Assembly: GCA_947482805.1 (NCBI GenBank)
Contig: CANKLK010000012.1
Location: forward strand, 1 to 26,202
Direction of reading: 5' to 3'
DNA: 26,202 nucleotides
Source: Flavobacteriaceae bacterium
GTDB taxonomy: Bacteria; Bacteroidota; Bacteroidia; Flavobacteriales; Flavobacteriaceae
Within the stretch, counting starts at the first letter, position 1, and each line of letters starts with the position of its first letter. The position numbers and the translations under genes were made by a program. Under the pieces are notes generated by a model that was not told the DNA's origin, searched no databases, and saw only the letters and a program-made list of their open reading frames with translations. Shown here in pieces: positions 4,337 through 19,073 of the stretch.

Positions 4337-4341
4337 AACCA

Positions 4342-4617: not shown

Positions 4618-4635
4618 AAAAAATAATAATTAATA

Positions 4636-4878: not shown

Positions 4879-4886
4879 TCTAACCA

Positions 4887-4978: not shown

Positions 4979-5064
4979 AAGTTAATACGACACAACTATC
5001 GAGAATGCTGCCAAAAAAACTTAGATAATTTTTATAAATATTTAGAAAATTAAATGATTGAAAA

Positions 5065-5397
5065 ATGGAAAAAAAATATTTTGATGACACTAATGAATTA
5101 ACTGAATTAATTAAAGATGATAAAAACTTTGAACTTATTTTAGAAAAGTATCAAAATTATTTTTTATTCGTGTTATGGGATAAAGATCCGTATGATGGGG
5201 ATAAAAAATTATATGGAGTTTACATATCGCAGGATTCCTTTCAAAAAGATGAAGAATATCTTGATAAAGATTGTTTAGAAGAATGGGGTGAAAATACACC
5301 ACTTCGAGGAGGAGGAAGTGGTTATGAAATTGCAGTAATTGATTTTTTAAAAAATAGAGAGCTAATTGATTATATAAGAGAATATGGAATTAAATAA
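5065..5397 (+). CDS. Hypothetical acidic cytosolic protein
   Basis: This 110-residue acidic protein is the first gene of cassette 3. It has no signal peptide and no transmembrane segment. It has an alternating pattern (YFLFVLWDKDPYDGDKKLYGVYIS) consistent with a beta-meander, then CLEEWGENTPLRGGGSGYEIAVIDFL and a C-terminal helix. I do not recognise the family; size and acidity are like many immunity-type proteins, but that is only a resemblance. It lies 13 bp upstream of the EEP-family gene in the same cassette, so the two are probably co-transcribed and travel together. Confidence 0.7.
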   Translation: MEKKYFDDTNELTELIKDDKNFELILEKYQNYFLFVLWDKDPYDGDKKLYGVYISQDSFQKDEEYLDKDCLEEWGENTPLRGGGSGYEIAVIDFLKNRELIDYIREYGIK

Positions 5398-5410
5398 ATC
5401 GAATTAATTT

Positions 5411-6166
5411 ATGATAAAAGTAATTACAATTAATCTTCTTGCAGAAAAGCCCTATCGAAAGTATGGCAAAGTAGCCTTGGTTGATTTCTCTAAAAGATCG
5501 GAAAGATTCTATCTTCAAATTTCTAATTTAATGCCAGATGTGATGCTTTTACAAGAAGTTGACATGATGTGGCGAGAATATTTAGAATTGTACATTGTTA
5601 AATTGGGCTATGCTATTAGTTTTGGTGAGTGTTGGAGTTCAGGACTTGCAATAGCATGGAAACAAGATTCAATGAAACCGAATAATGTACAGCCGGTAAA
5701 CTTTAAAGAAGCAGGCATTTTTAATTTGTGGCTTAAAAAAAGTGAGTCAAATGAAATAATTAGTTTTGTCAATTTACATGCTCCTTGGGGTAAGGCTGAA
5801 AAATTTGATAATTTTTATACTTCTCTAATTGAAGGTGCCTTTCCACTGCTAATCGCCGGGGATTTTAATACAGATGGTCCTGAGAATAATAATTTCAATT
5901 ATTTCTTCAGTAAATTATTTAAGTCAGAGAAAGGCTATAAGGAGTTAACTGAATCTATTCAATTCACAGCGCGAAACGTAAAAACAAATAATGCTGAAAA
6001 GCTAGATTATATTGTAGGTTTAAATATTTTTGGAAATAACACTAAAATATATCCAGAAATATTATCCCTTTTACTCCCACACTCTCCAGGCGGGGAGTTC
6101 TTTTCAGATAATGAAAATAATCATTTTTCCGACCATGCATTAGTTTTGTCAAATATTACCATATAA
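5411..6166 (+). CDS. Endonuclease/exonuclease/phosphatase (EEP) family protein
   Basis: Second gene of cassette 3, 251 residues, the full length of a minimal EEP domain. The metal-dependent phosphoesterase motifs occur in order: N8 (ITINLL), E49 (LLQEVD), H123 (NLHAPWG), D151 and N153 (AGDFNTDG), D199 (LDYIV) and the final D241-H242 (HFSDHALVL). All catalytic positions of the DNase I/exonuclease III/sphingomyelinase fold are therefore present, and the enzyme should be active. There is no signal peptide, so it probably acts in the cytoplasm. GDFN is shared by nucleases and phosphatases and does not give the substrate. The start follows the 110-aa gene after 13 bp. Pairing with a small acidic protein could suggest an enzyme and partner, but this is not demonstrated. 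Confidence 0.88.
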   Translation: MIKVITINLLAEKPYRKYGKVALVDFSKRSERFYLQISNLMPDVMLLQEVDMMWREYLELYIVKLGYAISFGECWSSGLAIAWKQDSMKPNNVQPVNFKEAGIFNLWLKKSESNEIISFVNLHAPWGKAEKFDNFYTSLIEGAFPLLIAGDFNTDGPENNNFNYFFSKLFKSEKGYKELTESIQFTARNVKTNNAEKLDYIVGLNIFGNNTKIYPEILSLLLPHSPGGEFFSDNENNHFSDHALVLSNITI

Positions 6167-6228
6167 GTTATTCAATAAACAAGAACATGATTGCCATAAA
6201 CCATATATTCAAAAAAAAAACTCAACCA

Positions 6229-6310
6229 GCCCATAACAGCGTGTAAGCAATATTGCCTTGCCGCAGGCGCAACACAAGGCAACATCGCCTACACGCAAAC
6301 CGTTATGCAT
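6229..6310 (+). repeat. attC-like site C (cassette 3 / cassette 4), hybrid outer boxes
   Basis: This 82-bp site is the shortest and cleanest hairpin. It runs from GCCCATAAC (6229-6237) to GTTATGCAT (6302-6310). AGCGTGTAAGCAATATTGCC pairs with GGCAACATCGCCTACACGC. The two outer boxes do not match each other beyond ATAAC/GTTAT. The right box instead matches the opening box of site D, at the far end of cassette 4. Confidence 0.87.
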
Positions 6311-6354
6311 CACTTAAAACACGATTGTATTTAAAGAACTTTTAATTCACTATT

Positions 6355-7824
6355 ATGAAAAAACGGAAACTATTTCTAAGCACTTTCCTAATTTATATTA
6401 ATGCCATAAATGGGCAAACAATTTCTAAATCTGAAGTTTTTAAAAACGAGCATGTAAAAATCAATGCATTTTCATTCTCTCCACAAAATGTACTTCCAGA
6501 AATAACAAGGGAGCATGGTATAAGAAGGTTTTATACCATGAATTTATCAAATGGAAAAATTGGCTGCTTATGGCAAGACAAAAACAATAAAGATATTTTA
6601 TTGACCAGTTATCAAGCAGATTTTACTGGACAAATTACAATTCCCTTAAAAAACACAGGAAAAGGGTTGCTACTCTCTGCCTGTACGGATGAGAAAGGAA
6701 ACATCTACTATGCGATAAGTTACAGCTCAAGTGAACCGCTAGATAGGGGGTTGAAATTTATGCTATACAAATACAGCAAAGAAGGTGTTCACATTGCTTC
6801 AAAATCCCACAATACTGATAAAGACGGTCTTAATATATATGATATTACCGAAAAATACATGAATACCATGCGATGTAAGAACGGACAATTATTAATGCTT
6901 ATAGAAAGACGATATCATGAAGGAATAGATGGCCTTAATCATCAAGGAGGATCAGCACTACTTTTTGAATCTACCCAGCTACGATTGATTAAAGACCTGG
7001 GGCAAACATCTGGTCACTCATTCGACAACTATCTAACGACATCAAACAACGGATTTATTGGAGCTGATCTTGGAGATAATTATCCAAGGGGGGTACATTT
7101 TCATGAGTTTAAATCTAAAGAAGAAACTGTAATTAAATCAAGCAAGGTAGTGTATACTTTTAAAACCGAACACAGTACGCGACCAAGCTACTCGACCGGA
7201 ATGCCATCATACCCTAAGTATACTGAAATAAGTAAGACGGGTAAAATATTCTATAAATGGTCGAATGATAATAGTACATACGGAGAAATTGGCGGTGTTG
7301 TTGAGGTTTCCGATGGTTATCTAATCTTTTTTACCGGAGAGCCTTCTCCTGAAGGTAAATCAATCGATAATTTCAGAGCTGGGAATTCTGAAGATCTAAG
7401 AAATGTAGGCTTTGTAAAAATTAGCAAGACATTCAACCAAGATGAAAAACCAATCCTTTCGAATGGGATAAATGAAAAAGGTGGATTCTATTCATTTGGC
7501 GGTCAATGGACTGATCAAGAAAACATTGGTATTGTTTGGCTAACCAACATTAAAAACACAACAGACCAAGGTGTAAGAAATTTAAAAACAGTAAAAATTG
7601 ATGAAAAAGTCATACTATTATGGGAGCAAACAACCAATTTAGGTGGTAAAACAAACATTTTATTGAAAGTCGACAAAAATGGAAAACCAATAGGGTCTGC
7701 AATTAATCTTGGAGATGTAATTACGCTCAATAGAAGAGACGATTTGATGGTGCTTAACGGAAAAATTTATCTGACAGGGAATCATTTGGGCCGATTGACA
7801 TTATTTGAATTTGGAGGTATATAG
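6355..7824 (+). CDS. Exported hypothetical protein, probable beta-propeller
   Basis: This 489-residue protein is the main gene of cassette 4. A signal peptide covers residues 1-21 (LFLSTFLIYINAINGQ), with a cleavage-like site before Q21. The mature part has repeated short beta-strand segments with Gly and Asp turns (GKIGCLWQDKNNKDILLTSYQ; GLLLSACTDEKGNIYYAIS; KTNILLKVDKNGKPIGSAINLG). This is like a propeller of sialidase or WD type, although no Asp-box motif is clearly repeated. There is no T9SS sorting domain, membrane segment or lipobox, so it is probably periplasmic. The cassette boundaries (TTATGCAT and GCATAAC) differ from its neighbours, which suggests a separate origin. Function is unknown. 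Confidence 0.8.
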   Translation: MKKRKLFLSTFLIYINAINGQTISKSEVFKNEHVKINAFSFSPQNVLPEITREHGIRRFYTMNLSNGKIGCLWQDKNNKDILLTSYQADFTGQITIPLKNTGKGLLLSACTDEKGNIYYAISYSSSEPLDRGLKFMLYKYSKEGVHIASKSHNTDKDGLNIYDITEKYMNTMRCKNGQLLMLIERRYHEGIDGLNHQGGSALLFESTQLRLIKDLGQTSGHSFDNYLTTSNNGFIGADLGDNYPRGVHFHEFKSKEETVIKSSKVVYTFKTEHSTRPSYSTGMPSYPKYTEISKTGKIFYKWSNDNSTYGEIGGVVEVSDGYLIFFTGEPSPEGKSIDNFRAGNSEDLRNVGFVKISKTFNQDEKPILSNGINEKGGFYSFGGQWTDQENIGIVWLTNIKNTTDQGVRNLKTVKIDEKVILLWEQTTNLGGKTNILLKVDKNGKPIGSAINLGDVITLNRRDDLMVLNGKIYLTGNHLGRLTLFEFGGI

Positions 7825-7831
7825 CAGCTGT

Positions 7832-7939
7832 ATGGATTCTACTAATCTTTTAAATCATACAATTATTGACAATACTTCAAATGACAAGATTACAATCCAA
7901 AAACGGTTCTTTTCCACAGAGCAGAGATGGAATTATTAG
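7832..7939 (+). CDS. Possible small ORF of 35 codons at the 3' end of cassette 4
   Basis: An ATG-started frame of 35 codons (MDSTNLLNHTIIDNTSN...) begins 7 bp after the stop of the exported protein and ends in TAG. Composition is plausible for a protein, but the length is within chance for AT-rich DNA and no ribosome-binding signal distinguishes it. It may equally be non-coding trailer: the cassette has about 180 bp between the main gene and attC site D, much longer than in most other cassettes. Confidence 0.2.
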   Translation: MDSTNLLNHTIIDNTSNDKITIQKRFFSTEQRWNY

Positions 7940-8002
7940 TAAAAAATGTATTTGAGTGATTGTTGAAAAACAATTATTAAGACAATTTAAGTTAAAAAGC
8001 GA

Positions 8003-8139
8003 ACGCATAACACGGGTTTTGCGTCAGGCGGGGGTGACGTACAAACCTGTAGCATAGTGCTTCAAATGAACTTTAGTAGTAAATTGAAATTTTGTGTTTC
8101 GACACCCGCCCGAACGCAAAGCCCAGAAACGTTAGCCGC
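8003..8139 (+). repeat. attC-like site D (cassette 4 / cassette 5)
   Basis: This 137-bp site runs from ACGCATAAC (8003-8011) to GTTAGCCGC (8131-8139). CGGGTTTTGCGTCAGGCGGG pairs with CCCGCCCGAACGCAAAGCCC. A small hairpin, GAAATTTTGTGTTTC (8086-8100), sits in the apical part. Neither outer box matches the other. Each matches the other end of its own cassette. Confidence 0.87.
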
Positions 8140-8205
8140 AAGCAAAGTGCAAAACCCCAAATATGCTAGTTTAATGAAAAATAACACAATACAATAACGA
8201 CAGAT

Positions 8206-8952
8206 ATGAAAAAAAATATTCAAATTTCAAAACAAGATGACTTCATGGAAAATCCAAAGACAAAATCTACTTTTCAGTTAATAACGAAAGTTATTGTTTT
8301 AGATAGTTTAATCTCCTTTTGGGTTAATATAAAAGAGGTAATATCAGTTTTCCAATTCTATCTAACTTATGGATTATTTCCAAATAAAAAACAAGTTGCC
8401 TTTGACCAACAATTGCTTTTTACAAAAAAGATTATAGGAATCTATTTACTTCTTTCTGTATTCAAAATAGTTTTATTAGAGTTATCTAAAGACCCATTAA
8501 ACGTGTCAAATTTAAAACAATATATAGCTGAAATATTTATTGTTATTTTTTATTATTTAGGAATAATCATATTTTGTTTATTAGGTAAACTGATAGCGTT
8601 CGTTTGCTATCGTAAACACAATAAAAGAGTAATAGAATCATATATGCTCGGAGAGTTTAATTTTCTTTTTTTGCTGTATTTTTTTTTGATTTTTTTTGGA
8701 ATAATAAAAATAGCTACAAACAATACTGATAATATGGCCGACAGTTTGGCAAGTAAGTTGAAATTGTTTTGTTTATTAACTTGGGTACATTCATTTTATT
8801 CTTACTTTCTAGTTTTCAAACAAAACATATCATTTGTGCGTTTCAAACGAACTCTCATAATATTCCCAATCATCATTGCAATTGTTATGTTTATAATATT
8901 ACTTTTTATTTCTACTTTTGATTCATTAAAATTTTTACAAAAATCAAATTAA
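8206..8952 (+). CDS. Multi-pass membrane protein of unknown function
   Basis: First gene of cassette 5, 248 residues. About five hydrophobic segments can be read: residues about 70-90 (IIGIYLLLSVFKIVLLEL), 105-132, 147-168 (FLFLLYFFLIFFGIIKIA), 185-205 and 213-236 (LIIFPIIIAIVMFIILLFI). The N-terminal about 65 residues are cytosolic-type, with no signal peptide. An in-frame ATG at 8245 (MENPKTKST) is an alternative start. The next gene, a PrsW-type intramembrane protease, begins 6 bp after the stop. The two are almost certainly one operon and may work together in the inner membrane, perhaps as protease and substrate or partner, but this is inference. The family was not recognised. Confidence 0.78.
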   Translation: MKKNIQISKQDDFMENPKTKSTFQLITKVIVLDSLISFWVNIKEVISVFQFYLTYGLFPNKKQVAFDQQLLFTKKIIGIYLLLSVFKIVLLELSKDPLNVSNLKQYIAEIFIVIFYYLGIIIFCLLGKLIAFVCYRKHNKRVIESYMLGEFNFLFLLYFFLIFFGIIKIATNNTDNMADSLASKLKLFCLLTWVHSFYSYFLVFKQNISFVRFKRTLIIFPIIIAIVMFIILLFISTFDSLKFLQKSN

Positions 8953-8958
8953 ATTATT

Positions 8959-9669
8959 ATGTTAGTAATTTTATTATCAGCCATTTTTCCAGTAATTATT
9001 TTTCTGTTTTTTATTTATCGGAAGGATACAGAAAAAGAACCTCCAATACTACTTGTAAAATGTTTTTTATGGGGCTGTGTTATAACCTTACCAATAATAC
9101 TAATAGAATTAGTATTAGATCACTTAAATATTTTTAATTCTGCACTTTTGCATTCTTTCTACAATGCATTTGTAGTTGCTTCATTTGTTGAGGAAGGTTT
9201 CAAATTCCTTTGTCTTTACTGGATTATTTGGAAGCGCAAAGAGTTTAACCAATATTTTGATGGAATTATTTATGCTGTTTTTGTATCCCTTGGATTTGCA
9301 TTTATTGAAAATATTGGCTACATATTTCAAAATGGGTTCGGTGCTGCAATTATGAGGGCAATATTATCAGTACCAGGGCATGGTTTGTTTGGTGTAATAA
9401 TGGGATACTTTTTTTCACTTGCAAGATTTTCAGAAATAGAAAAAAAGTGGAAATTTTTGTGGTTAAGCTTCCTCATACCTTTTTTGTTTCATGGATTATA
9501 TGATTTTTTACTTTTTTACATTGAGAAAAGTGGTGATAATATCGGATTTGTTTTGTTGTTATTTGCCATGTTTGTTATAGTAATGGTATTTCTGTGGCAC
9601 TACGGAATTAGATACGTAAAAAAACATTATGCAAATGACAAAGAGAATAATTTAAAATATAAAACATGA
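8959..9669 (+). CDS. PrsW-family intramembrane metalloprotease
   Basis: Second gene of cassette 5, 236 residues with about seven membrane segments. It carries the PrsW signature: RKDTEKEPP after the first helix (residues 21-29), the glutamate pair E78-E79 with K82 (FVEEGFKF), E117-N118 (FIENIGY), H141 (PGHGLFGVIMGYF) and H178...D182 (FHGLYDF). These are the conserved intramembrane residues of the PrsW branch of the CAAX-protease/APH-1 superfamily. Bacillus PrsW cleaves an anti-sigma factor to start a stress response. The substrate here is unknown; the co-encoded membrane protein at 8206-8952 is the obvious candidate partner. Family assignment is strong; the proteolytic role in this cassette is inferred. 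Confidence 0.9.
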   Translation: MLVILLSAIFPVIIFLFFIYRKDTEKEPPILLVKCFLWGCVITLPIILIELVLDHLNIFNSALLHSFYNAFVVASFVEEGFKFLCLYWIIWKRKEFNQYFDGIIYAVFVSLGFAFIENIGYIFQNGFGAAIMRAILSVPGHGLFGVIMGYFFSLARFSEIEKKWKFLWLSFLIPFLFHGLYDFLLFYIEKSGDNIGFVLLLFAMFVIVMVFLWHYGIRYVKKHYANDKENNLKYKT

Positions 9670-9685
9670 ATGATAATTAGTGCCA

Positions 9686-9799
9686 GCGGCTAACACGGCA
9701 TCTAGCTCCATTTTGCTTTTATGATAAGGCTAAGGCTGCGCCTATGCGCCATGATATTAAGGTAAGCAAAACGGAGCCAATGCCGGGCACGTTATGGGC
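9686..9799 (+). repeat. attC-like site E (cassette 5 / cassette 6)
   Basis: This 114-bp site runs from GCGGCTAAC (9686-9694) to GTTATGGGC (9791-9799). CGGCATCTAGCTCCATTTTG pairs with CAAAACGGAGCCAATGCCGG. The opening box is the reverse complement of the cassette's own start, GTTAGCCGC at site D, and does not match the closing box here. Confidence 0.87.
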
Positions 9800-9903
9800 A
9801 AGTTTATGAAACGACAACCAAACGGAAACAGACAGACAAAAGAACCAGCAAAGGTCAACTTTGATAGTTAATAATTTACATTTCGTAAAATTGGCAAACA
9901 TAG

Positions 9904-9963
9904 GTGGAGACCAGAACCCACTCAAAAAAACGGGGCGTATTCTGAAAAGCCAGATGAGTAAGA
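9904..9963 (+). promoter_or_regulatory. Conserved cassette leader element, copy 2
   Basis: GTGGAGACCAGAACCCACTC, A7 and C are identical to copy 1 at 4533. The end CTGAAAAGCCAGATGAGTAA is nearly the same. The insert hairpin of copy 1 is missing. GTGG/CCAC, ACTC/GAGT and TCTG/CAGA can pair. It lies 22 bp before the lipoprotein start. Confidence 0.5.
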
Positions 9964-9984
9964 TTTAAATTTAAATAAATAAAA

Positions 9985-10836
9985 ATGAAAAAAGTAACGA
10001 AAATAATAGCGACTCTTTTTGTTGCATCATTAATCTTGACAAGTTGTGGTGGAAATTCAAAAGAAGGTGAACCGCAAGATAAACCAAACGAAAATGTTAA
10101 AAAGCCAGATCCAAACATAATTTACTCTTTAAAGGACGCATTGGCAAGTGATTTTATTAAAATATCAGCAGATGGTAATGGCACTTATCGTAATATTCGA
10201 TTAAATTTAGAAAATAAATCCGACGCTAGTTGTAAGCTTACGCTTCCCGCTGGGATATATTTTGAAAACCCAGATGACAAAGCACAAAGTCTTATAACCG
10301 CAAAAAAAATAGAGATTATAACATTGAATGACAAACAAAAATTCAGCCTAGATGTACCCTCATTTTGTACCAATGTTCAGCAAAGTGTTCCCGGATTATT
10401 AAAAAACTGGAATCATAATCCAAATTATAATGGTGGATTAGATGAGGTTATCGAGTTTTATGGTAAATATGAAAAGGGTATCAACGAATGGTTAGAGAAA
10501 AAAAATAAAGAATTTTCAGATGAAAATAAACGGATGCTCTTTTTTCAAACAGTTATTTGGTATCATGAAGGTGCTCAATATCAAGAAATACTAGCTATGT
10601 TGAAAAATGATGTTTTCAAAAATGATATTGAACAGGCTAAAGTGTGGTTGGACGAGATTCATAAAGAAGCTTCTGAATTAGCTAAATTGATTAAAGAACG
10701 AGATTTAGAAAAAATTAAAACATGGCTTAAAGAAAAAACCTTGGAATTAATCCCAACTTCTGAACAAATTGATGAAGCGGTTGATAAAGGGAAAGAAAAG
10801 ATTAATAATATTCGAAAAAGACTTAGGAATAAGTAA
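9985..10836 (+). CDS. Lipoprotein of unknown function
   Basis: This is the only gene of cassette 6, 283 residues. A lipoprotein signal peptide ends in the lipobox LTSC with C21 (LFVASLILTSCGGNSK). The following GGNSKEGEPQDKPNENVKKPDPN is a flexible linker, and no clear surface-export signal such as SDDD/SDDE stands right after the cysteine. Residues about 45-125 look like a small beta domain with cysteines in NKSDASCKL and VPSFCTN. Residues 150-283 are strongly helical and charged (EQAKVWLDEIHKEASELAKLIKERDLEKIKTWLKEK), probably coiled coil. The family was not recognised. It is preceded by a conserved leader element and followed within 6 bp by site F. Confidence 0.82.
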   Translation: MKKVTKIIATLFVASLILTSCGGNSKEGEPQDKPNENVKKPDPNIIYSLKDALASDFIKISADGNGTYRNIRLNLENKSDASCKLTLPAGIYFENPDDKAQSLITAKKIEIITLNDKQKFSLDVPSFCTNVQQSVPGLLKNWNHNPNYNGGLDEVIEFYGKYEKGINEWLEKKNKEFSDENKRMLFFQTVIWYHEGAQYQEILAMLKNDVFKNDIEQAKVWLDEIHKEASELAKLIKERDLEKIKTWLKEKTLELIPTSEQIDEAVDKGKEKINNIRKRLRNK

Positions 10837-10841
10837 AACCA

Positions 10842-10975
10842 GCCCATAACAGCGCATTCGCAAAACCGGGGTTACTCATCACGTTTGAAAGATTCCGGTT
10901 TTGTGCTATATTTGGGTTCGCAGATGTATTTCGGAAAAAGTCCCCGGCTTCGCAAATGCGCAGAACGTTATGGGC
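10842..10975 (+). repeat. attC-like site F (cassette 6 / cassette 7)
   Basis: This 134-bp site runs from GCCCATAAC (10842-10850) to GTTATGGGC (10967-10975). The inner arms are AGCGCATTCGCAAAACCGGGG against CCCCGGCTTCGCAAATGCGC. It starts 5 bp after the lipoprotein stop. Confidence 0.87.
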
Positions 10976-11063
10976 AAGTTGAACAAACATAGCAATAAAC
11001 AAGAGAGCCACAAAAAGCCGGAATTGACTAATCATAACAGCATTTTTTAACTGACCAAAAAAA

Positions 11064-11122
11064 GTGGAGTCGAGAAAACCACAAAAAAACAGCGAGGATT
11101 CTGAAAATCGATAAGAGTAGTA
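11064..11122 (+). promoter_or_regulatory. Conserved cassette leader element, copy 3 (divergent)
   Basis: GTGGAGTCGAGAAAACCAC, A7 and C, followed by GGATTCTGAAAATCGATAAG and AGTAG, align with copies 1 and 2. GTGG/CCAC pairing is kept, but the ACTC strand is lost. It lies 20 bp before the start of the 666-residue exported protein. Divergence with retention of the stem suggests a selected element, though three copies are few. Confidence 0.42.
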
Positions 11123-11141
11123 AAAACAAATCCAAAATCTA

Positions 11142-13142
11142 ATGAAAAAAAGATACAAAAAGAATACTAAAAACAATTTCTTGATAAGTAGTTTATTGAT
11201 TATTTTTTCTAGTTTTTTTATCATATCACCATCATCAGCACAGATCACTTCTAACAAATGTGAACTAAGTGGAAACCTTTTTTATAACAATTGTACAAAG
11301 TACTATGGTGACTGTCAAGATAATAAGGCAAATGGTTGGGGGGAACTATACCTTAACAACAATAATACTTTAAGGGGTTTATTCGTTAATAATAAGGTTC
11401 AAAATTTTTATATTGAATATTACTCGGCTGCAAATAATAAGTTAACTATTGGACCAAATAGAGAATCGGCTCTTCATGGACCGTGTATAAGTATCTCAAA
11501 CGAATATGTTTCTTTAGCTAACTACGAAAATGGACAATATCGAGGGAATGGTGATTTATTTCAAATTCCTCCACCAAATTATAATTATAATGGGATTTTT
11601 TGTGATCCAGATGGATATAGTGTAAAGGATAATAGTCAAAGTAATTTGATTCCTAACACGTCTTTGGTGATTTATACATCAGCTCGGGAATATAATACTA
11701 GGGGTGATAGAAAATACTGGGTTTCTGTGGTTGATTTATCTTCAAATAAGTTAATTAAAAAATTCGGCTCCTACGAAAAGCCTCTAACGATAAATAATGC
11801 TCCTTTATTTATTGGTTTTACTAAAGAAAATAAACCTATTTACAATTATTCAGGTAAATATTTTCAATTTGAAATTATGAGTGGAATAGTTAAACCATTA
11901 AGTAAATTACCATTGGAAATGATATCAAAAAATAATCAGATAGAAACAATAAAGAAAACATCATACAAAGATTTAGGCTCAATCAGTGGCTGGGGCCTTG
12001 ATAAATATAAAATTCTGAAGGATAGCTCTTATGTTAAGATTTTTAATAGTAAAATTTATTTAGAAAGTGTTAAAAACTTTAAAAGCGAAAGAGGGTCCGG
12101 TTCAAGTTTAGTTATGTTTAATAATAAAAATGAAATAATAAATAGCTTAGAACTACCTGATTACAATATTATTGATTTTGATATTGATGAACAAAATGAA
12201 AGAATTGCATTATCATATGGTGGAAAGGATTCAATTTGTTTGTCATATTATGATTTGAAAACTTTTAAACTTATTTCAAATGTATTTACACGTAATGGTG
12301 GATATCCCGGTGAAGTTAAGTTTTCTAAATCAGGAACTTATTTATTGTACAAGTTAAATCGTGGAACTGCTATTTATTTGGGTAATAAATTATATTACGG
12401 TATTGAAGGTGACTTATATGACTTAAATAACGATGAAAATGTTGTTATTTCTAATAGTGGAAATAATGTATTTGCTTATGATATTGAAAAGAAAACAATT
12501 ATTTGGACTCATCCTATTGGTGATGATTATATAAATACAAAATTCTTTAATGTAGAAAATAAAATTTACATCATTAGTGGTCGAGCACTATCATGGGAAG
12601 GATATAAAGTTAAAGAAAATGGGATTAAATTAATTTCTTTCATAATGCCTAAACCTCTTTTCTCGATACAAGAATTTGTGAAAAAACCTGAAGAAACCTT
12701 TATTAAGGTTAATATTACGAAAGATAAAAAAATAGATAGTAATAATTTAACTGAAAAGTCAAAAAGTCAAATTAAAAAAGCCGATGATGATTTATTTAGT
12801 AATTATTTAGCATTAATGTTATTATCTGCAATATTTGAAAGTTCCAATAAATATTCAGGAAGTACATATCAATCTGCTGCAAGTAGTTCTTCATTAAACA
12901 ATAAAAGTTCAAAATGTAATGAAAAGTTTAAGTTTAGGATATGGAAAGGTGGACAATATCCAAGTGGAAAGTATTGGGGTGGATGGGCTGATGAAGAAAC
13001 TTCAAAAGCAGGGTATGTAAAATGCCCTAGTTGTAATGGATATGGTGTGAATTGGGATTATGATAATAATGAGGGACGTCCACGATCTAAAAAATGCTAT
13101 AATAATTCTTGTAATGGAGGTTGGATAACTTGCAATCATTAA
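11142..13142 (+). CDS. Large exported protein with MORN-like start and Cys-rich tail
   Basis: Main gene of cassette 7, 666 residues. A long N-terminal signal (residues 1-34, NNFLISSLLIIFSSFFIISPSSAQ) predicts export. Residues 56-85 (YGDCQDNKANGWGELYLNNN) look like one degenerate MORN repeat. Residues about 150-530 have repeated beta-strand segments, consistent with a propeller (IIDFDIDEQNERIALSYGGKDS; VKFSKSGTYLLYKLN; NVFAYDIEKKTIIWTHPIG). A Ser/Asn-rich linker leads to a C-terminal cysteine cluster, C628PSC631NGYG and C652YNNSC657NGGWITC664. It resembles the CxxCxGxG zinc fingers of DnaJ, which is unusual on an exported protein. The family was not recognised. An out-of-frame coding-like stretch follows at 13169-13261. 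Confidence 0.82.
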   Translation: MKKRYKKNTKNNFLISSLLIIFSSFFIISPSSAQITSNKCELSGNLFYNNCTKYYGDCQDNKANGWGELYLNNNNTLRGLFVNNKVQNFYIEYYSAANNKLTIGPNRESALHGPCISISNEYVSLANYENGQYRGNGDLFQIPPPNYNYNGIFCDPDGYSVKDNSQSNLIPNTSLVIYTSAREYNTRGDRKYWVSVVDLSSNKLIKKFGSYEKPLTINNAPLFIGFTKENKPIYNYSGKYFQFEIMSGIVKPLSKLPLEMISKNNQIETIKKTSYKDLGSISGWGLDKYKILKDSSYVKIFNSKIYLESVKNFKSERGSGSSLVMFNNKNEIINSLELPDYNIIDFDIDEQNERIALSYGGKDSICLSYYDLKTFKLISNVFTRNGGYPGEVKFSKSGTYLLYKLNRGTAIYLGNKLYYGIEGDLYDLNNDENVVISNSGNNVFAYDIEKKTIIWTHPIGDDYINTKFFNVENKIYIISGRALSWEGYKVKENGIKLISFIMPKPLFSIQEFVKKPEETFIKVNITKDKKIDSNNLTEKSKSQIKKADDDLFSNYLALMLLSAIFESSNKYSGSTYQSAASSSSLNNKSSKCNEKFKFRIWKGGQYPSGKYWGGWADEETSKAGYVKCPSCNGYGVNWDYDNNEGRPRSKKCYNNSCNGGWITCNH

Positions 13143-13168
13143 AACAATAACATATTTAGTTAAAGACT

Positions 13169-13261
13169 GTAGAAAAAAATCCTGGACGAATTGACTATTC
13201 GGCAGTTGCAAAATCTGATACTTATAAAGGTGGTGCTGGATTTTTATCGCTATTTTATTAA
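13169..13261 (+). pseudogene. Possible remnant of a coding sequence without start
   Basis: The frame from 13169 reads VEKNPGRIDYSAVAKSDTYK and continues GGAGFLSLFY before TAA (13259-13261). Its composition looks protein-like, but no ATG, GTG or TTG with a plausible ribosome site opens it: a TAG interrupts the frame at about 13160. It could be the tail of a gene lost in this cassette or the old C-terminus of the preceding protein after a frameshift. The stretch is short and chance cannot be excluded. Confidence 0.25.
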
Positions 13262-13265
13262 TCCA

Positions 13266-13395
13266 GCCCATAACAGCAGTTACACAAGATGCAAGGATTT
13301 AGTGGAATTACCGTTTCGCAACGAACTTTTTATTTAAATAGAAAATATGCAGTCACGAAGCCTTGCACCTCGAGTAGCTGCAGAACGTTATGGGT
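13266..13395 (+). repeat. attC-like site G (cassette 7 / cassette 8), hybrid outer boxes
   Basis: This 130-bp site runs from GCCCATAAC (13266-13274) to GTTATGGGT (13387-13395). AGTTACACAAGATGCAAGG pairs with the CCTTGCACCTCGAGTAGCTG side through CAAG/CTTG-type segments, a weaker arm match than in other sites. The closing box continues TTATGGGTAATTT, matched by TACCCATAAC 4 kb downstream at site H. Confidence 0.82.
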
Positions 13396-13473
13396 AATTT
13401 ATCGGACTATTGATAATTTTATAAATTGTAATTGAAAATAATCATAAAAAACTGATTGAAAGATTTTTAAAAT

Positions 13474-16400
13474 ATGAACATCAACTTGGCTTTTAGTTGT
13501 TTAAATAGTAATTGTGCTTTGGTAGGCAATCAGTACTTGGAGGTTGTAGCAAATGCTCTTAAACATATATGTCCTGCATGCGGAAACAACTTGGTCAAAA
13601 AAGAGGAGCTAGCTTGGTATAAGGATATTCTTGATCGAACTGATTGTTGGAATAAAAAATCAATGGAATTTACACCTTCAATAATTGCTTATGAATATTG
13701 GAGGCTGTCAGATCTTTTCGTAAATAATAAGATTTATGGTGCGCTTATTCAGTTAAAGGATGTGTATGAACTTGCTATTAAGTTTCCGGTGTTATTAGAA
13801 TGCTCACGTTTTTATCATCAGCCCAAACGTAGCGAAACAGAAAACACAATCTTATTTAACCTCTTGAATAAAAAACTCTCATTAGGCGATTGGGAGCGAC
13901 TAGGGAGGATGGTCTATAAAACATATGGGAAATCTAAACCTGAGATGGAAAAGATCCTTGGGCTGACACTAGAACTATATTCCAAAACCAAGATTGTAAA
14001 TTGGAGAAACAATACGATTGGTCATGGCGCCCTTGGTTTTGAAGAGGATCCAGATTTCAGGTCGGACATTGAGCAAAAATTAATTTCACTTGCTGCATAC
14101 TTTAGGTCTGTTGTTCCTTTATATAGCAATCTGAACTTAATTATGAAGGATTCCAGAGGGGCGTCATTATTAAAAGGAAAAAAAGCAATAATCGATGCTG
14201 AATTTTCAGATGCTGACCTTTACATTGAATCCACTGGTGTCAATCATTCTTTATACCCGTATATTCAAGCATTGCAGGGGAAAGTCTATCTATTCGATAG
14301 CCTAAACGAATGGACTGAACTTACATATTTCCTGAACTATTCTACCGGCAAGAAGCATAATGAAACTATTCCCGAATTAAATTCGCTGTTACATCAATTA
14401 GGAAAGAATACGAATCTTAAAATTCTTGATGCTTCGATAGAAGATTTAGGAAACTCTTATATTGAACTAGAGGCCATTAAACAATTCCAGAAGGGTGAAG
14501 GCATTCAAAAAAACGAGTCTATATTTAATTGGTTGAATAAATTAATTCAGGAGAATGATCGTGGGGTATTCCTTCTTCAGATGGAACGAGGGACAGGTAA
14601 AACCACCTTCTCTAGATCCCTGGATAATTTTGCTGACGACAGCCAGCGAATAGCTGGTGTAACCTCCAGAGTCCATTACATCAACGATACTATTGGGTAT
14701 AAACTTGACAATTTTGTGTCGCAACTTTCAGATAATTTTAGATCGGATAAATCAGGAAAACTATTAATTAGTGGAAAGACGCCAATAATTGATATCAAAC
14801 ACGATGAACCAGAAATCAGCATGGCTGATTTTCTAATTTTTTTTCAAAAGAGATTTATCAGTCTTCATAGCACGGAAAAATTGTTGTTCATTATTGATGG
14901 CTTAGATGAGATTCCAAATAAAATTGAAGAACGTTCGATTTTTGATTTCATTCCAGATCCAAAACTATTACAAAAGGGAGTTTATCTTTTGCTCACATCC
15001 CGAACTTCTGAGGAACTCCCTGCTAGTTTAAAGAATCGACTGGATAAAATAGATCTGAATGCAAAGACTTCGATATATAGAAATGCAGAAACTAACATAA
15101 CATTTCTAAAATCTTACATCAAGAATCAGGGTTACATGGCTTCTGCGTCAGAGGTTTTACTTGAAAAATCCGAATATCGTATTCTTTATCTGAACCCATT
15201 ATGCATGCTACTTCAGAAGAACAAAATTCAGTTTAATAAAATGCCAGAAGGTGCAGAATTAATTTCTTCATATATCCGAGCTATTACGTCATCTTATGAC
15301 GAAAAACATTCAGACGATCTGATTAGCCTATTGCTGGCAATATCTACATCTTTTGAACCGCTTACTATTTCCGAAATCAGCCAAATCCTAAAAAACAGCA
15401 AACCTTTATTCCGTGATCTAGCGTATTTGCATGATTTGTCCAGTCTACTAAATATTCAGCGCAATTTTCGTGGCAATGTAATGATGGTTGCCCATGATGA
15501 ATTCCGGGGACAAATTAAGAAATTATATAAGCCAACTATTGAAAATCTAATCAGAGAGTTCATTGACAGGGCAAATAATGTCCGAAGAAAATTGGATCCT
15601 GAAGATCTCGGTAATATTTATTTGTTGTCATTTTTGCCCGATTATTGTCAGGAATACCTTGGATTTGATTTCCGTCCGGAAGTGCCCAAAGAGTATATAG
15701 AAAAAATAAAACTTGTTTCTGATAATATTCAATTGATTCCTGAAACATCTGCACTTGCAAGAACATGTAAGATTCGGCTCATCAGCCAAGTTCTTCATAA
15801 TCTAGAGCAAATGGACGATTATCCTGCATACCTTAAATATGTTAAGGGAGTGCACCAAGGTATATTAAATGAAGTACTCGAAATCCGGATTTTATCTGGT
15901 GATTTACTTCTTAAAAAAGTCAGTGAACAAGCAACACTTGAATATACTCCTAACCATTATCCCTTTTATCAGGCCTTAGCCAGAGTTCTTTACAGGCAAC
16001 AGGAATTACAATCTTCCATTGGGATAACAAAGAATTTATATTATTTACATAAGCATACGGATGATTTCTTAAACCTCATACTAATGCTTAAAAGTACAGA
16101 CATACCTATTGACAATAAACCGGGTATGGTGATCGGTTCTGAATTAATTGAGGAAGCAATCAAGGAAGGTATTATTGATTCTATGCCAGAAAATTTACAG
16201 GCATTTTTGTTTTATTCGCTGGCAAGAATTTACGGTGATATGAAGGAAAAATGGATAGTAGCTCGGAAATACTTCGAGAAATGTAGGGATTTGTTTAGCT
16301 CACATAATGACATGGTTAACCTGGCTATTTCTGAGCATTCCTTGGCATTGGCACTTTTTGATGCTGGTCAGCACCAGGAGGCACTGGATTTGCTCATTAA

Positions 16401-16893
16401 ATGTCGGTCTGTTTTTGAATCGCTTGACTTATTTGACCACAAATATATCAGTGAGCCTTTCATGTTAAACTACCAAATAATATCTTTCGCTTGTTCAGGA
16501 AAAGATCCGGGGGGGCTATCCGAACAATCTATTTACAGCGATGAGGTTTTGCAGTATCACCTTAATAATCAAATGCTGATTTGCATTAGGCTGTCCCGTA
16601 TGGCTGAAGCACAGGATTATTTTTATAAAGCTATGGTTTCTGTCAATGAAAAAGGAGGATACTACTCCAAGGCTGCATTATTAAATAATTGCTTTGCCAT
16701 TACTAACGATAACACTTTATTGCATCAATCTAAGAACATTACTGAGGAAACAAATTACTCGCTGGGTAATATAATTGTTCGATTTAATATGAAAGAAATA
16801 ACTGATAGTGAGTCATTCCATGGATTCTTGCTTAACGATGGAATAGCCCTCTGGCCATGCCTGAAAAACATTAACATATTAATTACTAAATAA
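13474..16893 (+). CDS. Zinc-ribbon/HEPN-like/NACHT NTPase with C-terminal helical repeats (putative defence protein)
   Basis: First gene of cassette 8, 1,139 residues with no signal peptide. Residues 9-36 hold two CxxxxC/CxxC pairs (C9, C14, C33, C36), a zinc-ribbon-like start. Residues about 60-220 are helical and contain WRNNTIGHGAL, where R178 and H184 fit the Rx4-6H pattern of HEPN RNase domains. A STAND/NACHT-type NTPase follows: Walker A ERGTGKTT (K376), Walker B LFIIDGLDEI (D475, D478, E479) and an LLLTSR sensor (R510). Residues about 800-1100 are helical repeats of TPR type (LARIYGDMKEKWIVARKYFEKC; LALALFDAGQHQEALDLL), a likely sensor. This order of effector, switch and sensor is that of NACHT/Avs-like immune proteins. 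It is co-encoded with a nucleotidyltransferase 7 bp downstream. NTPase assignment is strong; the HEPN reading and the defence role are inferences. Confidence 0.82.
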   Translation: MNINLAFSCLNSNCALVGNQYLEVVANALKHICPACGNNLVKKEELAWYKDILDRTDCWNKKSMEFTPSIIAYEYWRLSDLFVNNKIYGALIQLKDVYELAIKFPVLLECSRFYHQPKRSETENTILFNLLNKKLSLGDWERLGRMVYKTYGKSKPEMEKILGLTLELYSKTKIVNWRNNTIGHGALGFEEDPDFRSDIEQKLISLAAYFRSVVPLYSNLNLIMKDSRGASLLKGKKAIIDAEFSDADLYIESTGVNHSLYPYIQALQGKVYLFDSLNEWTELTYFLNYSTGKKHNETIPELNSLLHQLGKNTNLKILDASIEDLGNSYIELEAIKQFQKGEGIQKNESIFNWLNKLIQENDRGVFLLQMERGTGKTTFSRSLDNFADDSQRIAGVTSRVHYINDTIGYKLDNFVSQLSDNFRSDKSGKLLISGKTPIIDIKHDEPEISMADFLIFFQKRFISLHSTEKLLFIIDGLDEIPNKIEERSIFDFIPDPKLLQKGVYLLLTSRTSEELPASLKNRLDKIDLNAKTSIYRNAETNITFLKSYIKNQGYMASASEVLLEKSEYRILYLNPLCMLLQKNKIQFNKMPEGAELISSYIRAITSSYDEKHSDDLISLLLAISTSFEPLTISEISQILKNSKPLFRDLAYLHDLSSLLNIQRNFRGNVMMVAHDEFRGQIKKLYKPTIENLIREFIDRANNVRRKLDPEDLGNIYLLSFLPDYCQEYLGFDFRPEVPKEYIEKIKLVSDNIQLIPETSALARTCKIRLISQVLHNLEQMDDYPAYLKYVKGVHQGILNEVLEIRILSGDLLLKKVSEQATLEYTPNHYPFYQALARVLYRQQELQSSIGITKNLYYLHKHTDDFLNLILMLKSTDIPIDNKPGMVIGSELIEEAIKEGIIDSMPENLQAFLFYSLARIYGDMKEKWIVARKYFEKCRDLFSSHNDMVNLAISEHSLALALFDAGQHQEALDLLIKCRSVFESLDLFDHKYISEPFMLNYQIISFACSGKDPGGLSEQSIYSDEVLQYHLNNQMLICIRLSRMAEAQDYFYKAMVSVNEKGGYYSKAALLNNCFAITNDNTLLHQSKNITEETNYSLGNIIVRFNMKEITDSESFHGFLLNDGIALWPCLKNINILITK

Positions 16894-16900
16894 AAATAAA

Positions 16901-17377
16901 ATGAATAATACCGAAGAAGCATTTAACTGGATCATCTCCTTACTTGAATCAAATGGAATACCATTTCGTATTTCAGGAGGATTTGCTGCCCGTATTCACG
17001 GAGCAAAACGTGAGCTTGCCGACATTGACATTGACATACGTGAATCAGATATCGAAATGTTATACCCATACATTAAAGATAAACTCATCTTCGGCCCGGA
17101 GATGTATTTGGATGAAAGCTGGGATCTTTATCTAGCAACGCTGGATTTTAATGGCCAGCTTATTGACTTGGCTGGAGCCACAAAAGCGAAAATATTTGAT
17201 TTAAATACTAATCAATGGGTTCCATTTAAGGTTGACTTTAATGATATGGTAACTTGTGAAGTGTTTGGCAAAAAAGTAAAAGTTATAAAGGTTAGCGATC
17301 TAATCAGTTATAAAAATATGCTTAAAAGAGAAGTTGATATTTCTGATATAAAGGAATTGAATGCAGTAATTGATTAA
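16901..17377 (+). CDS. Nucleotidyltransferase-fold protein (MNT/AbiEii-like)
   Basis: Second gene of cassette 8, 158 residues, starting 7 bp after the NACHT gene. It has the nucleotidyltransferase core: the glycine pair in ISGGFAARIHGAKR (G26-G27), the metal-binding DIDIDI (D41, D43, D45) and a later acidic strand residue in LIDLAGA (D89). This is the small-NTase type found in MNT antitoxins, AbiEii-like proteins and aminoglycoside-nucleotidyltransferase relatives. In HEPN-MNT toxin-antitoxin pairs the MNT protein AMPylates the HEPN toxin next to its active site. The neighbour here has a HEPN-like motif, so a similar regulatory role is plausible. AbiEii-type toxin activity is the alternative. 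Fold assignment is good; target unknown. Confidence 0.82.
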   Translation: MNNTEEAFNWIISLLESNGIPFRISGGFAARIHGAKRELADIDIDIRESDIEMLYPYIKDKLIFGPEMYLDESWDLYLATLDFNGQLIDLAGATKAKIFDLNTNQWVPFKVDFNDMVTCEVFGKKVKVIKVSDLISYKNMLKREVDISDIKELNAVID

Positions 17378-17415
17378 AAAATAATTTATTTAATATGTTA
17401 TTTTACAAGTAAACT

Positions 17416-17551
17416 ACCCATAACAGCACCTACAAGAAATTGGCGGTTCTGTGGTTAAATGAAGTTTTGTGCTTCGTATCAAGTTCAGTGGTGGCAGACA
17501 GTTTTGTGCTTCGAAACCGCCAACTTCTTGTAGCAGCAAACCGTTAGCAGC
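17416..17551 (+). repeat. attC-like site H (cassette 8 / cassette 9), hybrid outer boxes
   Basis: This 136-bp site runs from ACCCATAAC (17416-17424) to GTTAGCAGC (17543-17551). CTACAAGAAATTGGCGGTT pairs with AACCGCCAACTTCTTGTAG, one of the best stems in the array. The apical part has GAAGTTTTGTGCTTC (17461-17475), a counterpart of the hairpin in site D, and AGTTTTGTGCTTCG occurs again at 17500-17513. Confidence 0.87.
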
Positions 17552-17632
17552 AAGCTTTCAAAACCTCATAAAAGATGACATTTTAGTTTAATAAAGGAAC
17601 CGCAATTTTAATCAAATAACAAATATTTAGAG

Positions 17633-17640
17633 TATTTTTG
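17633..17640 (+). promoter_or_regulatory. Candidate -7 element for the Fic cassette
   Basis: TATTTTTG matches TAnnTTTG exactly and lies 24 bp before the Fic start, inside cassette 9. No convincing -33 TTG is seen at the right distance. If active, the cassette carries its own promoter and does not depend on the array position. Confidence 0.4.
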
Positions 17641-17664
17641 AATTTGAAAAATAGATAGTTTTTT

Positions 17665-18222
17665 ATGAAAAATATTGATGGAAAAAGTATAGAAAATGCC
17701 TTTCGCTTGTTCGAATCTAATAACATTGAAAAAATTGAAATCGGAACGACAAAAGGCTTATTACAAATACATCATTATCTATTTAATGGTTTTTATGATT
17801 TTGCTGGAAAGGTTCGAACTGTGAATATATCTAAAGGCGGTTTTAGATTTGCAAATGCTCTCTATTTAAATGAAATTTTAATTAAGATTGAACAAATGCC
17901 AGAAAACAGTTTTGAAGAAATAATCTCAAAATATGTTGAAATGAATATCGCTCATCCATTTTTGGAGGGAAATGGCAGAACCATGAGAATCTGGCTTGAT
18001 TTGATTTTAAAGTCAAGACTAAAAAAATTAGTTAATTGGCAGTTTGTAGATAAATCACTTTATTTACAAGCTATGGAAAGAAGTCCAATAAATGATTTAG
18101 AACTACGAACTCTATTAGGACAAAACTTAACAGATGAAATTGAAAATAGAGAAGTCATCTTCAAAGGAATTGAACAATCATATTATTATGAAGGTTATAA
18201 GAAAGAAGATGATGACGAATAA
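17665..18222 (+). CDS. Class III Fic protein adenylyltransferase, autoinhibited
   Basis: This is the only gene of cassette 9, 185 residues. Fic enzymes transfer AMP from ATP to hydroxyl side chains of target proteins. The active-site loop [12 protein letters not shown] is complete (H97, N103, R105, R108). The target-docking flap region [16 protein letters not shown] precedes it. The C-terminal helix carries the inhibitory SxxxEG motif (S172-YYY-E176-G177). This is the class III arrangement, and the protein is closely similar by memory to the small Neisseria meningitidis Fic, which AMPylates GyrB when oligomer control is released. No separate antitoxin gene is needed or seen. The acidic tail KKEDDDE after the inhibitory helix extends beyond the usual end. 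Domain assignment is very strong; the DNA gyrase target is inference from the relative. Confidence 0.95.
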
Positions 18223-18242
18223 TTTGCTTTTTAAAAACGCCT

Positions 18243-18379
18243 GCTAGTAACAGCGGTTTCTCGCTATTACTGGTTTTTCTTGAATACAACTCATTTCTTC
18301 ACGAAAATATTTTATCTTAGCAGAACGTACGCAGTTCGCTAAAATCGCAACAGACGCGAAGCCGCGAAACGTTACCAGC
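18243..18379 (+). repeat. attC-like site I (cassette 9 / cassette 10)
   Basis: This 137-bp site runs from GCTAGTAAC (18243-18251) to GTTACCAGC (18371-18379). AGCGGTTTCTCGC pairs with the GCGAAGCCGCGAAACGTT side. This is the exception in the array: the opening box differs at two positions from the complement of its own cassette start (GCTGCTAAC) and at one from that of the next cassette (GCTGGTAAC). Confidence 0.82.
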
Positions 18380-18412
18380 AACTTTAACACAAATCCGTTT
18401 CAAAAAGAAATC

Positions 18413-18934
18413 ATGAGAAAAATAATATTTGTTATTTTAGTTTTATTCACTTTAAATAGCTTTGGTCAGAAAAATTGCAAATACGAAATTAACCAAAGCA
18501 AAGTGCTTGAAAATAGAAATTTAGACAGTTTTTTGGATAAGTTTGAAAATGAAAAATTTGTCATTTACAATGATAAAAAATCAATTCCAAAGCAAGTTAA
18601 AAAAGGTTTAGATTGTATTGCGTCAAAATTTAGTATTGCAAATTCTAAAGAAAGTTATCAAGCGAGTTGCATTATTGAAGAGAATTCACCGAAAAGACAA
18701 TTAATATTTCTCGCAAAAAGTGAAGATATTTTGGTAATGTCATATGCAACCGGAGGAATTGGAAGTTCGACGCATTTTCTATTTATAAAATTTGATTCTA
18801 AAAATATTATTGATTTGTGGGCTGGAGTTGGAATGGGAATAATTAAGCACAAATCGCTGGAAGAAATTGTAAAATATATCTCCTCACAGAGAAATATAAA
18901 ATGGGGATTAAATACAAATATGGTGTCAATCTAA
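18413..18934 (+). CDS. Exported hypothetical protein
   Basis: This is the only gene of cassette 10, 173 residues. A signal peptide covers residues 1-19 (IIFVILVLFTLNSFGQ), with a cleavage-like site after G18-Q19, typical of Flavobacteriia. The mature protein is about 154 residues, mixed alpha/beta, with three cysteines (NCKYEIN; GLDCIASK; QASCIIEE) and a glycine-rich strand SYATGGIGSSTHFLFIKFD. There is no lipobox, membrane segment or sorting domain, so it is probably periplasmic. The family was not recognised. The start is 34 bp from the cassette boundary and the stop is 7 bp before site J, a very compact cassette. Confidence 0.8.
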   Translation: MRKIIFVILVLFTLNSFGQKNCKYEINQSKVLENRNLDSFLDKFENEKFVIYNDKKSIPKQVKKGLDCIASKFSIANSKESYQASCIIEENSPKRQLIFLAKSEDILVMSYATGGIGSSTHFLFIKFDSKNIIDLWAGVGMGIIKHKSLEEIVKYISSQRNIKWGLNTNMVSI

Positions 18935-18940
18935 AAAGCT

Positions 18941-19073
18941 GCTGGTAACAGCCGTTTGGCGAAACAGCTGGTTTTGTCTTTCTTGGAAAATACTCCGTAT
19001 TTTCCAATTCGGTTTTTCTAAGATATTTTGCTTAAATTGCCGCTAATTCGCCTAGCGCCAAACCGTTGTGCAA
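18941..19073 (+). repeat. attC-like site J, last site of the array
   Basis: This 133-bp site runs from GCTGGTAAC (18941-18949) to GTTGTGCAA (19065-19073). AGCCGTTTGGCG pairs with CGCCAAACCGTT. The closing box TTGTGCAACAA has no complementary opening box anywhere downstream in the window, so it marks the right end of the array. Confidence 0.87.

Follow-up and report, generated by a model that had tools for sequence, protein, structure and literature searches.

Introduction

The described systems closest to the locus analysed here are the integrons. Strand exchange in the classical integrons takes place at G/TT, as stated in the available parts of two articles (PMC3518468, PMC2727003), and because ACID, in the portion at hand, already defines the own attC site of a cassette as the one present in its circular form (PMC2674596), the rule that the ends of a cassette match each other is not new, the principle itself being well known from integrons. 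An insertion in the integrase IntI has been described as essential for integron function and as not fully conserved in an integron-like subgroup, at least in the accessible sections of that study (PMC8138268). The Bacteroidota are listed among the integron-bearing phyla (PMC8618304, PMC9668308), and nothing more than In0 elements and then one complete integron has been reported in the Bacteroidetes proper with IntegronFinder 2.0 (PMC9024848), again according to partial versions of these papers. Here, we analyse a stretch of 26,202 nucleotides from a Flavobacteriaceae bacterium (assembly GCA_947482805.1, contig CANKLK010000012.1, positions 1 to 26,202), referred to below as the window, which very probably contains an integron-like cassette array of the Bacteroidota, made up, all on one strand, of a recombinase gene, ten cassettes and, between them, a promoter-like motif and an attI-like site, and in which the cassettes would move as circles. 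The anatomy of the array, the pairing within cassettes, the boundary at attI and the precise sharing of cassettes between genomes can be read from the sequence.

Results

Pairing of cassette ends in the window

The ten attC-like sites of the array span positions 4348 to 19067 of the window, and a cassette is taken to run from the TT that follows the G of one GTT through the G of the next GTT, with its own attC-like site near its end. An initial annotation had proposed that the start of each cassette is complementary to its own end, and all of the start and end strings that it quoted are present where it had placed them. When the six bases beyond GTT and AAC are compared, cassettes 1 to 10 pair at 6, 6, 6, 5, 6, 6, 6, 6, 4 and 6 bases, as against 6, 6, 3, 3, 3, 6, 5, 2, 5 and 0 bases within sites 1 to 10. 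Over twelve bases the sums are 90/120 within cassettes and 60/120 within sites; random re-pairing of the window ends over the same length gave a mean of 65.2, and 23 of 1,000,000 permutations reached 90, which bears out the proposed complementarity. For cassettes 4, 5, 8, 9 and 10, which do not carry the common word, a single one of 120 pairings reaches the true score, and this is the true pairing. The effect in the window is real yet modest, because five cassettes share one word.

Some details of the initial annotation need adjustment. The outer boxes of a site, said to be mismatched at hybrid junctions, are not so at every hybrid site, since five of six bases match at site 7. The paired ends of 7-10 bases are present, but the pairing extends further than was thought, since it resumes past these bases and continues up to about position 12. 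An A-C mispair is found at position 8 in nine of the ten window cassettes; the exception is cassette 4, which pairs over GTT and four bases before an A-C mismatch, and cassette 9 is therefore not, as had been claimed, the sole imperfect one. Furthermore, the span of 6302..18949 given for the phenomenon is too narrow, as the recombinase gene (1940-2983), the attI-like element (~2995-3087) and the first three cassettes lie outside it.

Pairing of cassette ends in other arrays

The broader set comprised 81 loci, namely the window and 80 loci kept from 553 confirmed relatives; cassettes without a clear start or longer than 6 kb were dropped, and 9 of the 81 loci had no clear attI-like start. Pairing at all six bases was observed for 77 of 109 cassettes (71 of 101 without the window), and the mean was 5.09 within cassettes vs 3.04 in 112 sites. 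Outer boxes that paired within a site as well as across the cassette would speak against the proposal; instead, the cassette paired better in 82 of 106 paired comparisons, with equal scores in 11 and a better site in 13 (Wilcoxon p 6e-13).

Ten further loci, picked from matches to the site cores across genomes, gave 59 of 79 cassettes at 6/6 and a mean of 5.28 vs 2.78 in 90 sites, with two long arrays among them contributing 40 of 41 cassettes at 6/6. These two arrays were extended after their length and near-perfect pairing were known and thus represent the best case, the 81-locus set being the broader one. Each is located directly behind a recombinase, and they contain 43 and 53 cassettes, of which 43/43 and 52/53 pair at all six bases; taken jointly, 95 of 96 cassettes do so vs 2 of 96 sites. 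The observed mean in the long arrays was 5.98, whereas 2000 permutations within arrays gave a mean of 3.01 and a maximum of 3.40. These numbers bear on the idea that the pairing arose incidentally, through local exchange of sequence among repeats, and implies no mobility. Site cores are similar across many genomes, as such exchange would have it, but exchange between neighbouring repeats would homogenise the boxes within a site, which is the opposite of what the long arrays display, and a whole cassette is precisely shared between genera (see below). We regard this idea as scarcely credible.

Among the 96 cassettes of the two long arrays, 44 distinct start hexamers and 83 distinct 12-mers occur. 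This diversity is difficult to reconcile with the suggestion that the cassettes are small transposon-like units with matching ends that serve as terminal inverted repeats for a transposase, because the repeats of one enzyme should share sequence. It would suit a transposon that the ends form inverted repeats ~15 bases long and that the Fic cassette recurs in two genomes where no array site was detected in the fetched stretch. However, a structured site is located between the cassettes, nearly always in one orientation, and it is included in the homology of shared cassettes, which makes a transposon-like origin highly improbable.

Arm profile and predicted folding

For the same 96 cassettes, the numbers of Watson-Crick pairs at positions 1-14 are 96, 95, 96, 96, 95, 96, 69, 0, 94, 88, 93, 79, 44 and 22, and the corresponding numbers within the 96 sites are 82, 35, 22, 32, 54, 42, 40, 0, 46, 29, 47, 45, 35 and 21. 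Position 8 at the start is an A in 96/96 cassettes, opposite a C in 87, which corresponds to a T-G mispair on the bottom strand. Likewise, for the 84 of 109 cassettes in the 81-locus set with the first four bases paired, positions 9-12 are paired in 77, 74, 78 and 69 cassettes and position 13 in 10, while position 8 is an A in all 84, with one Watson-Crick pair. In the two long arrays, GTT is followed by A or G in 96/96 cassettes and then by T or C in 55/96; the classical 7-base R boxes, RYYYAAC and GTTRRRY, are not kept, and the pairing runs well beyond 7 bases.

For comparison with class 1 cassettes, eight plasmid integron loci were scanned; 27 site pairs were listed, of which 6 were taken by eye and 21 dropped as chance or unclear, and a seventh cassette end was located by its own string. 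In this small, hand-picked set of seven cassettes from five loci, the pairs at positions 1-12 number 7, 6, 5, 7, 6, 2, 3, 3, 3, 2, 2 and 1 of 7, and the site pairs better than the cassette in one of the six cases with both scores. The class 1 cassettes thus appear to obey the same rule over positions 1-5, which is approximately the known R box. No usable classical sites were obtained from viral contigs with IntI.

When the ends are rejoined as a circle, the mean predicted folding energy of the bottom strand falls from -23.9 to -31.5 kcal/mol (85 cases from the window and seven chosen loci). The circle junction is predicted to fold better than the hybrid on the bottom strand in 81/85 cases and worse in 2, and the bottom strand is predicted to fold better than the top strand in 83/85 rejoined sites. 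A one-sided 4-base bulge is present beside the outer arm in 9/10 predicted bottom-strand folds of the window sites. One could also imagine that both ends of a cassette anneal as a single strand within the array itself, with the gene looped out, so that the pairing works in place. The complementarity would permit this, and the in-array site is weakened, but the partners are separated by ~0.3 to 4 kb, whereas a circle unites them beside the inner stem as a continuous predicted hairpin. Moreover, the class 1 cassettes display this pattern, if over a shorter arm, and the use of circles by classical integrons is described in the available part of PMC2727003, all of which renders pairing in place improbable.

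Shared cassettes and the position of strand exchange

A cassette of 1.44 kb, 93-94% identical between loci, is the first one at attI in Flavobacterium denitrificans (L014) and internal in Pelobium manganitolerans (L038) and in a metagenome-assembled genome of the Bacteroidia (L061). The homology extends from the G of GTT to the following GTT, apart from bases that may match by chance where the adjoining cassette begins, and it covers the own site of the cassette, which suggests that whole cassettes with exact boundaries are transferred between attI and positions within arrays. Two Chryseobacterium plasmids with an attI-like element, the recombinases of which (L109 15001-16044 and L110 15001-16044) are 69.5% and 68.0% identical, agree in sequence across the recombinase and attI as far as GTT and diverge thereafter.

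Because of the pairing within cassettes, the folding of the circle junction and the GTT-bounded shared cassette, circular cassettes are strongly, though indirectly, supported as the best explanation of the end pairing. The initial annotation had spoken of direct evidence for circles, a wording that we find too strong even with the support of 77/109 and 95/96 cassettes and 81/85 folds. Its placement of strand exchange after the G is compatible with the data, but the sequence places the exchange only within GTT, to the right of the base before it (A in the attI-like site of the window, C in the attC-like sites) and to the left of the base after it. The exact bond cannot be read, because G, T and T are identical on both partners. 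Since G/TT is the position in the classical integrons, it is likely to be used here as well.

The recombinase

The tyrosine recombinase of the array (1940..2983, plus strand, 347 amino acids, Pfam PF00589 and PF13495) has an N-terminal extension of ~70 amino acids and lacks the IntI insertion. It reached 222.1 bits with the NF040815 profile (cut-off 220) and 195.5 bits with TIGR02249 (cut-off 265), thereby passing the former and failing the latter. The best TIGR02249 matches in 8/8 genomes covered the profile up to 175-179 and from 235-240 and skipped the middle (~180-234); the pieces were scored separately, and none was above the cut-off. The distance from KGKKDR to HxLRH is 75 residues in 68/68 intact array recombinases vs 116 in 3/3 IntI, a difference of 41 residues, in a count that leaves out 13 of the 81 loci without a clean recombinase frame. 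Neither in profile score nor in the insertion does the array recombinase thus qualify as an IntI-type integrase.

A tree of 42 rows placed the 23 array recombinases in one clade (99/97) and the three IntI in another (100/100). Both clades were apart from seven XerC/D-like rows, so that no clustering of the array clade with host XerC/XerD was seen, and nine other Xer-like Bacteroidota proteins beside them were unresolved. The seven rows belong to four genomes in which an array recombinase is present too, and the label XerC/D was read from length and grouping. The tree says nothing on IntI as the nearest kin of the array recombinase. The predicted structure (mean predicted local distance difference test score 82, predicted template modelling score 0.56) was most similar in Foldseek to an archaeal Xer and XerA, with TM-scores of 0.41-0.43 to the query and root-mean-square deviations of 12.7-18.2, followed by IntI4 (~0.4); the modelled likeness to Xer and XerA would hold by domain.

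Judged by anatomy, the recombinase would work like an integron integrase, yet it is not an IntI by the defining feature. Could the arrays nevertheless be ordinary IntI integrons, indistinguishable from the known ones? The layout is the same, with a C before GTT, a predicted hairpin on the bottom strand and attI at the recombinase (PMC2727003, in its available part), and since the accessible text of PMC8138268 describes the insertion as incompletely conserved in the integron-like subgroup, relatives of the array recombinase may already have been grouped there. On the other side stand the score below the TIGR02249 cut-off, the missing insertion in all 68 intact proteins, the clade apart from the three IntI, the arms that stay paired as far as position 12 around an invariant mispair, unlike those of the seven class 1 cassettes, and the departure from GTTRRRY. 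We consider it unlikely that these are ordinary IntI integrons.

Relatives occur across the Bacteroidota. The closest recombinases that were found come from Bacteroidetes and Flavobacterium records, at 87% and below, and matches at E 1e-40 or better were found in 72/198 Bacteroidota genomes and at 1e-106 or better in 20/198, not all of which need have arrays. DNA of the window array was matched in 311/398 genomes from the genus of Flavobacterium caseinilyticum (G001, L003), many of the matches being to site cores. On viral contigs, the best 80 of 165 relatives are 41-48% identical, mostly across the catalytic part. A second copy of an array-type recombinase, with one internal stop, was observed in one genome (G249, contig 1, ~3275999-3277039) with an intact copy elsewhere.

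The attI-like element and candidate promoter

Downstream of the recombinase is a candidate array promoter, TATATTTG (2995..3002, plus strand), which recurs in the same or close forms 3' of the recombinase stop in aligned relatives and which we take to resemble the -7 promoter motif of the Bacteroidetes. It is followed by an attI-like element (3014-3074) in which one short box occurs four times, arranged as two palindromes and identified by alignment: a first arm of the form box-N6-box (3014..3031) and a second arm (3058..3074). Double changes were observed among 32 sequences for each of the nine pairs predicted to link the arms; this covariation is no proof of a folded attI, because each arm is palindromic in itself. 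The sequence of the box varies between species, mostly changing together in both arms, as if one diversifying protein recognises it or as if pairing keeps it.

The core of the attI-like site, TATATACTAGTT (3076..3087, plus strand), has the consensus TATATAC[AT]AGTT in relatives, and 72 of the 81 loci match at least 9 of the 12 consensus bases, with GTT included and no shuffled control. The conservation ends at GTT, after which different first cassettes begin, as would be expected of an insertion site.

The attC-like sites

All ten attC-like sites of the window are assigned to the minus strand, presumably the strand that recombines. Sites 1 (4348..4470), 2 (4893..4972), 6 (10848..10969) and 9 (18249..18373) are joined by site 7 (13272..13389), with outer words that differ at one of six bases, and by site 10 (18947..19067), the last of the array. 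Hybrid outer boxes are found at site 3 (6235..6304), at site 4 (8009..8133), of which top and bottom strands are predicted to fold about equally, at site 5 (9692..9793) and at site 8 (17422..17545), of which the top strand is predicted to fold slightly better. A C before GTT and an A after AAC are invariant in all ten, which were located by eye. No attC-type Rfam family matched the window at the gathering score, where only the DUF805 RNA did.

The inner part of the site varies in length, which made a covariance model unsuitable. The detector used to locate sites in other loci relied on AAC, GTT and the inner stem only, and the outer boxes were scored afterwards. It presupposes the C before GTT and the A after AAC, so the constancy of both in the large sets is uninformative. 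At the chosen setting, it missed window sites 2 and 8 and gave one false match at 25857; the window rows in the large set accordingly include merged cassettes. Downstream of the recombinase in the 81 loci, 116 sites were detected on the recombinase strand and 4 on the opposite one (122 plus and 12 minus at a looser setting), and over the whole loci 116 plus and 12 minus, as compared with 6 in shuffled sequence. The tandem imperfect palindromic sites thus share one orientation, and the arrays of 43 and 53 cassettes have 1 and 0 minus-strand matches.

Contents of the window

The window begins with the end of a purL-like gene (40-1698), followed by the recombinase, the attI-like element, ten cassettes with ten attC-like sites and ordinary chromosomal genes, including dihydrofolate reductase and ubiE; the DNA past site 10 is taken to be flanking chromosome. 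The cassettes, all on the plus strand, are listed below with their coordinates and, after the semicolon, two positions: that of the G in the GTT before the cassette and that of the first A in the AAC that closes it.

Cassette 1 (3086..4468; 3085/4348) encodes a secreted protein with a sorting domain, cassette 2 (4469..4970; 4468/4893) a protein with a weak DUF4177 match below the Pfam cut-off, and cassette 3 (4971..6302; 4970/6235) an orphan and an endonuclease/exonuclease/phosphatase-like protein. Cassette 4 (6303..8131; 6302/8009), which starts with TTATGCAT and ends with GCATAAC, encodes a protein of 489 amino acids with no Pfam match, and cassette 5 (8132..9791; 8131/9692), from TTAGCCGC to GCGGCTAAC, an open reading frame without a Pfam match and a PrsW-like protease. 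Cassette 6 (9792..10967; 9791/10848) has no Pfam match, and cassette 7 (10968..13387; 10967/13272) encodes 666 amino acids with none above the cut-off. Soon after the start of both, 5' of the gene, is a DUF805 RNA (Rfam RF03081; 9899-9968 and 11059-11127), which may be a leader carried by cassettes. Another was observed downstream of a recombinase (L009 17409-17476), the sole DUF805 match in 8 other loci.

Cassette 8 (13388..17543; 13387/17422), which starts with TTATGGGTA and ends with TACCCATAAC, is 4 kb long, and its genes (13474-17377) encode an NTPase of 1139 amino acids that carries TPR repeats and weakly matches NACHT, together with a nucleotidyltransferase-like protein, a make-up that is, we presume, reminiscent of defence genes. 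Cassette 9 (17544..18371; 17543/18249), with imperfect end pairing, encodes a protein of the Fic/DOC family and has relatives in L216 and L217, where no site was detected in the fetched stretch; the homology begins at GTT in L216 and ends a few bases past the closing AAC in both. Cassette 10 (18372..19065; 18371/18947), from TTACCAGCA to TGCTGGTAAC, has no Pfam match.

Discussion

We propose that the two ends of a cassette would meet in an excised circle and that the rejoined bottom strand would fold into a hairpin composed of the inner stem and an outer arm of GTT and about 12 bases. A single strand exchange within GTT, probably carried out by the recombinase, would link the folded strand to the attI-like site or to a different one. 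The outer arm would be split upon integration, the left half remaining at the end of the cassette and the right half becoming its start, and the resulting in-array site would be a hybrid of two neighbours. The words of the arm could vary freely, provided that both halves of one cassette match.

Several observations weigh against this model. In the 81 loci, 32 of 109 cassettes remain below 6/6, and the eight shorter loci among the ten further ones give 19/38 at 6/6; the misses are overlooked sites or misplaced starts for some and true exceptions for others, window cassette 9 among them. The end of cassette 9 pairs with the neighbour at five of six bases vs four with its own start. This exception looks like a later change in the start arm, because copies of cassette 9 in two other genomes, 94-95% identical, start with GTTACTAGC and end with CTAGTAAC (CTAGTACC in one) and pair at 5/6 bases by eye. 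Predicted folding favours the bottom strand in 8/10 in-array sites of the window, sites 4 and 8 being the exceptions, and integration weakens the modelled arm relative to the circle, a difficulty for the excision of integrated hybrid sites. A single candidate site was detected per Chryseobacterium plasmid, so that array function there is at most putative. Finally, we infer the circles, the role of the recombinase, the choice of the bottom strand, single-strand folding in the cell and G/TT from sequence.

On balance, and by a small degree, we favour a more far-reaching hypothesis, namely that the Bacteroidota have an integron class of their own that has been missed by IntI-based searches. An Xer/XerA-like recombinase without the IntI insertion would act on folded single-stranded sites, each cassette would carry a private self-complementary key of 12 bases that is whole only in the circle, and free circles would be a much stronger substrate than integrated cassettes, making the array a store with a one-way bias. 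If so, a large phylum holds long cassette arrays that standard integron searches have overlooked, the IntI insertion is dispensable for recombining folded sites, and the matching of a start to its own end marks cassette boundaries from sequence alone in well-kept arrays.

How, then, do the Bacteroidota arrays compare with known systems? A description of them was not found in the open-licence literature, judged mostly by titles and abstract openings, and the available parts of surveys of integrons and clusters of attC sites lacking integron integrases in the Bacteroidota (IntegronFinder 2.0; Ghaly and others) do not mention the arrays of 43 and 53 cassettes. With the class 1 and Vibrio integrons they share tandem cassettes, an attI beside the recombinase, probable exchange at GTT, a C before GTT and a predicted imperfect hairpin that favours the bottom strand. 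They also resemble integrons in that the right end of a site comes from the next cassette and the intact site would be present solely in the circle, as described in the accessible parts of PMC2674596, PMC3518468 and PMC2727003. In contrast to integrons, the IntI insertion is absent from their recombinase, which is extended at the N-terminus, GTTRRRY is not kept, the paired arm reaches ~15 bases and has a constant A-C mispair as its eighth position, and the attI-like site has two co-varying palindromic arms. Recombinase and array are on the same strand, whereas the fetched class 1 regions have them on opposite strands. The XerA-like family annotated as 'site-specific tyrosine recombinase/integron integrase' (NF040815) is similar in that the window protein just passes its cut-off. 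Known members of that family act at dif-like sites; the window gene differs in heading a cassette array. What is new here is the other type of recombinase, the longer arm with a constant mispair, the freely varying arm words and the long arrays in the Bacteroidota.

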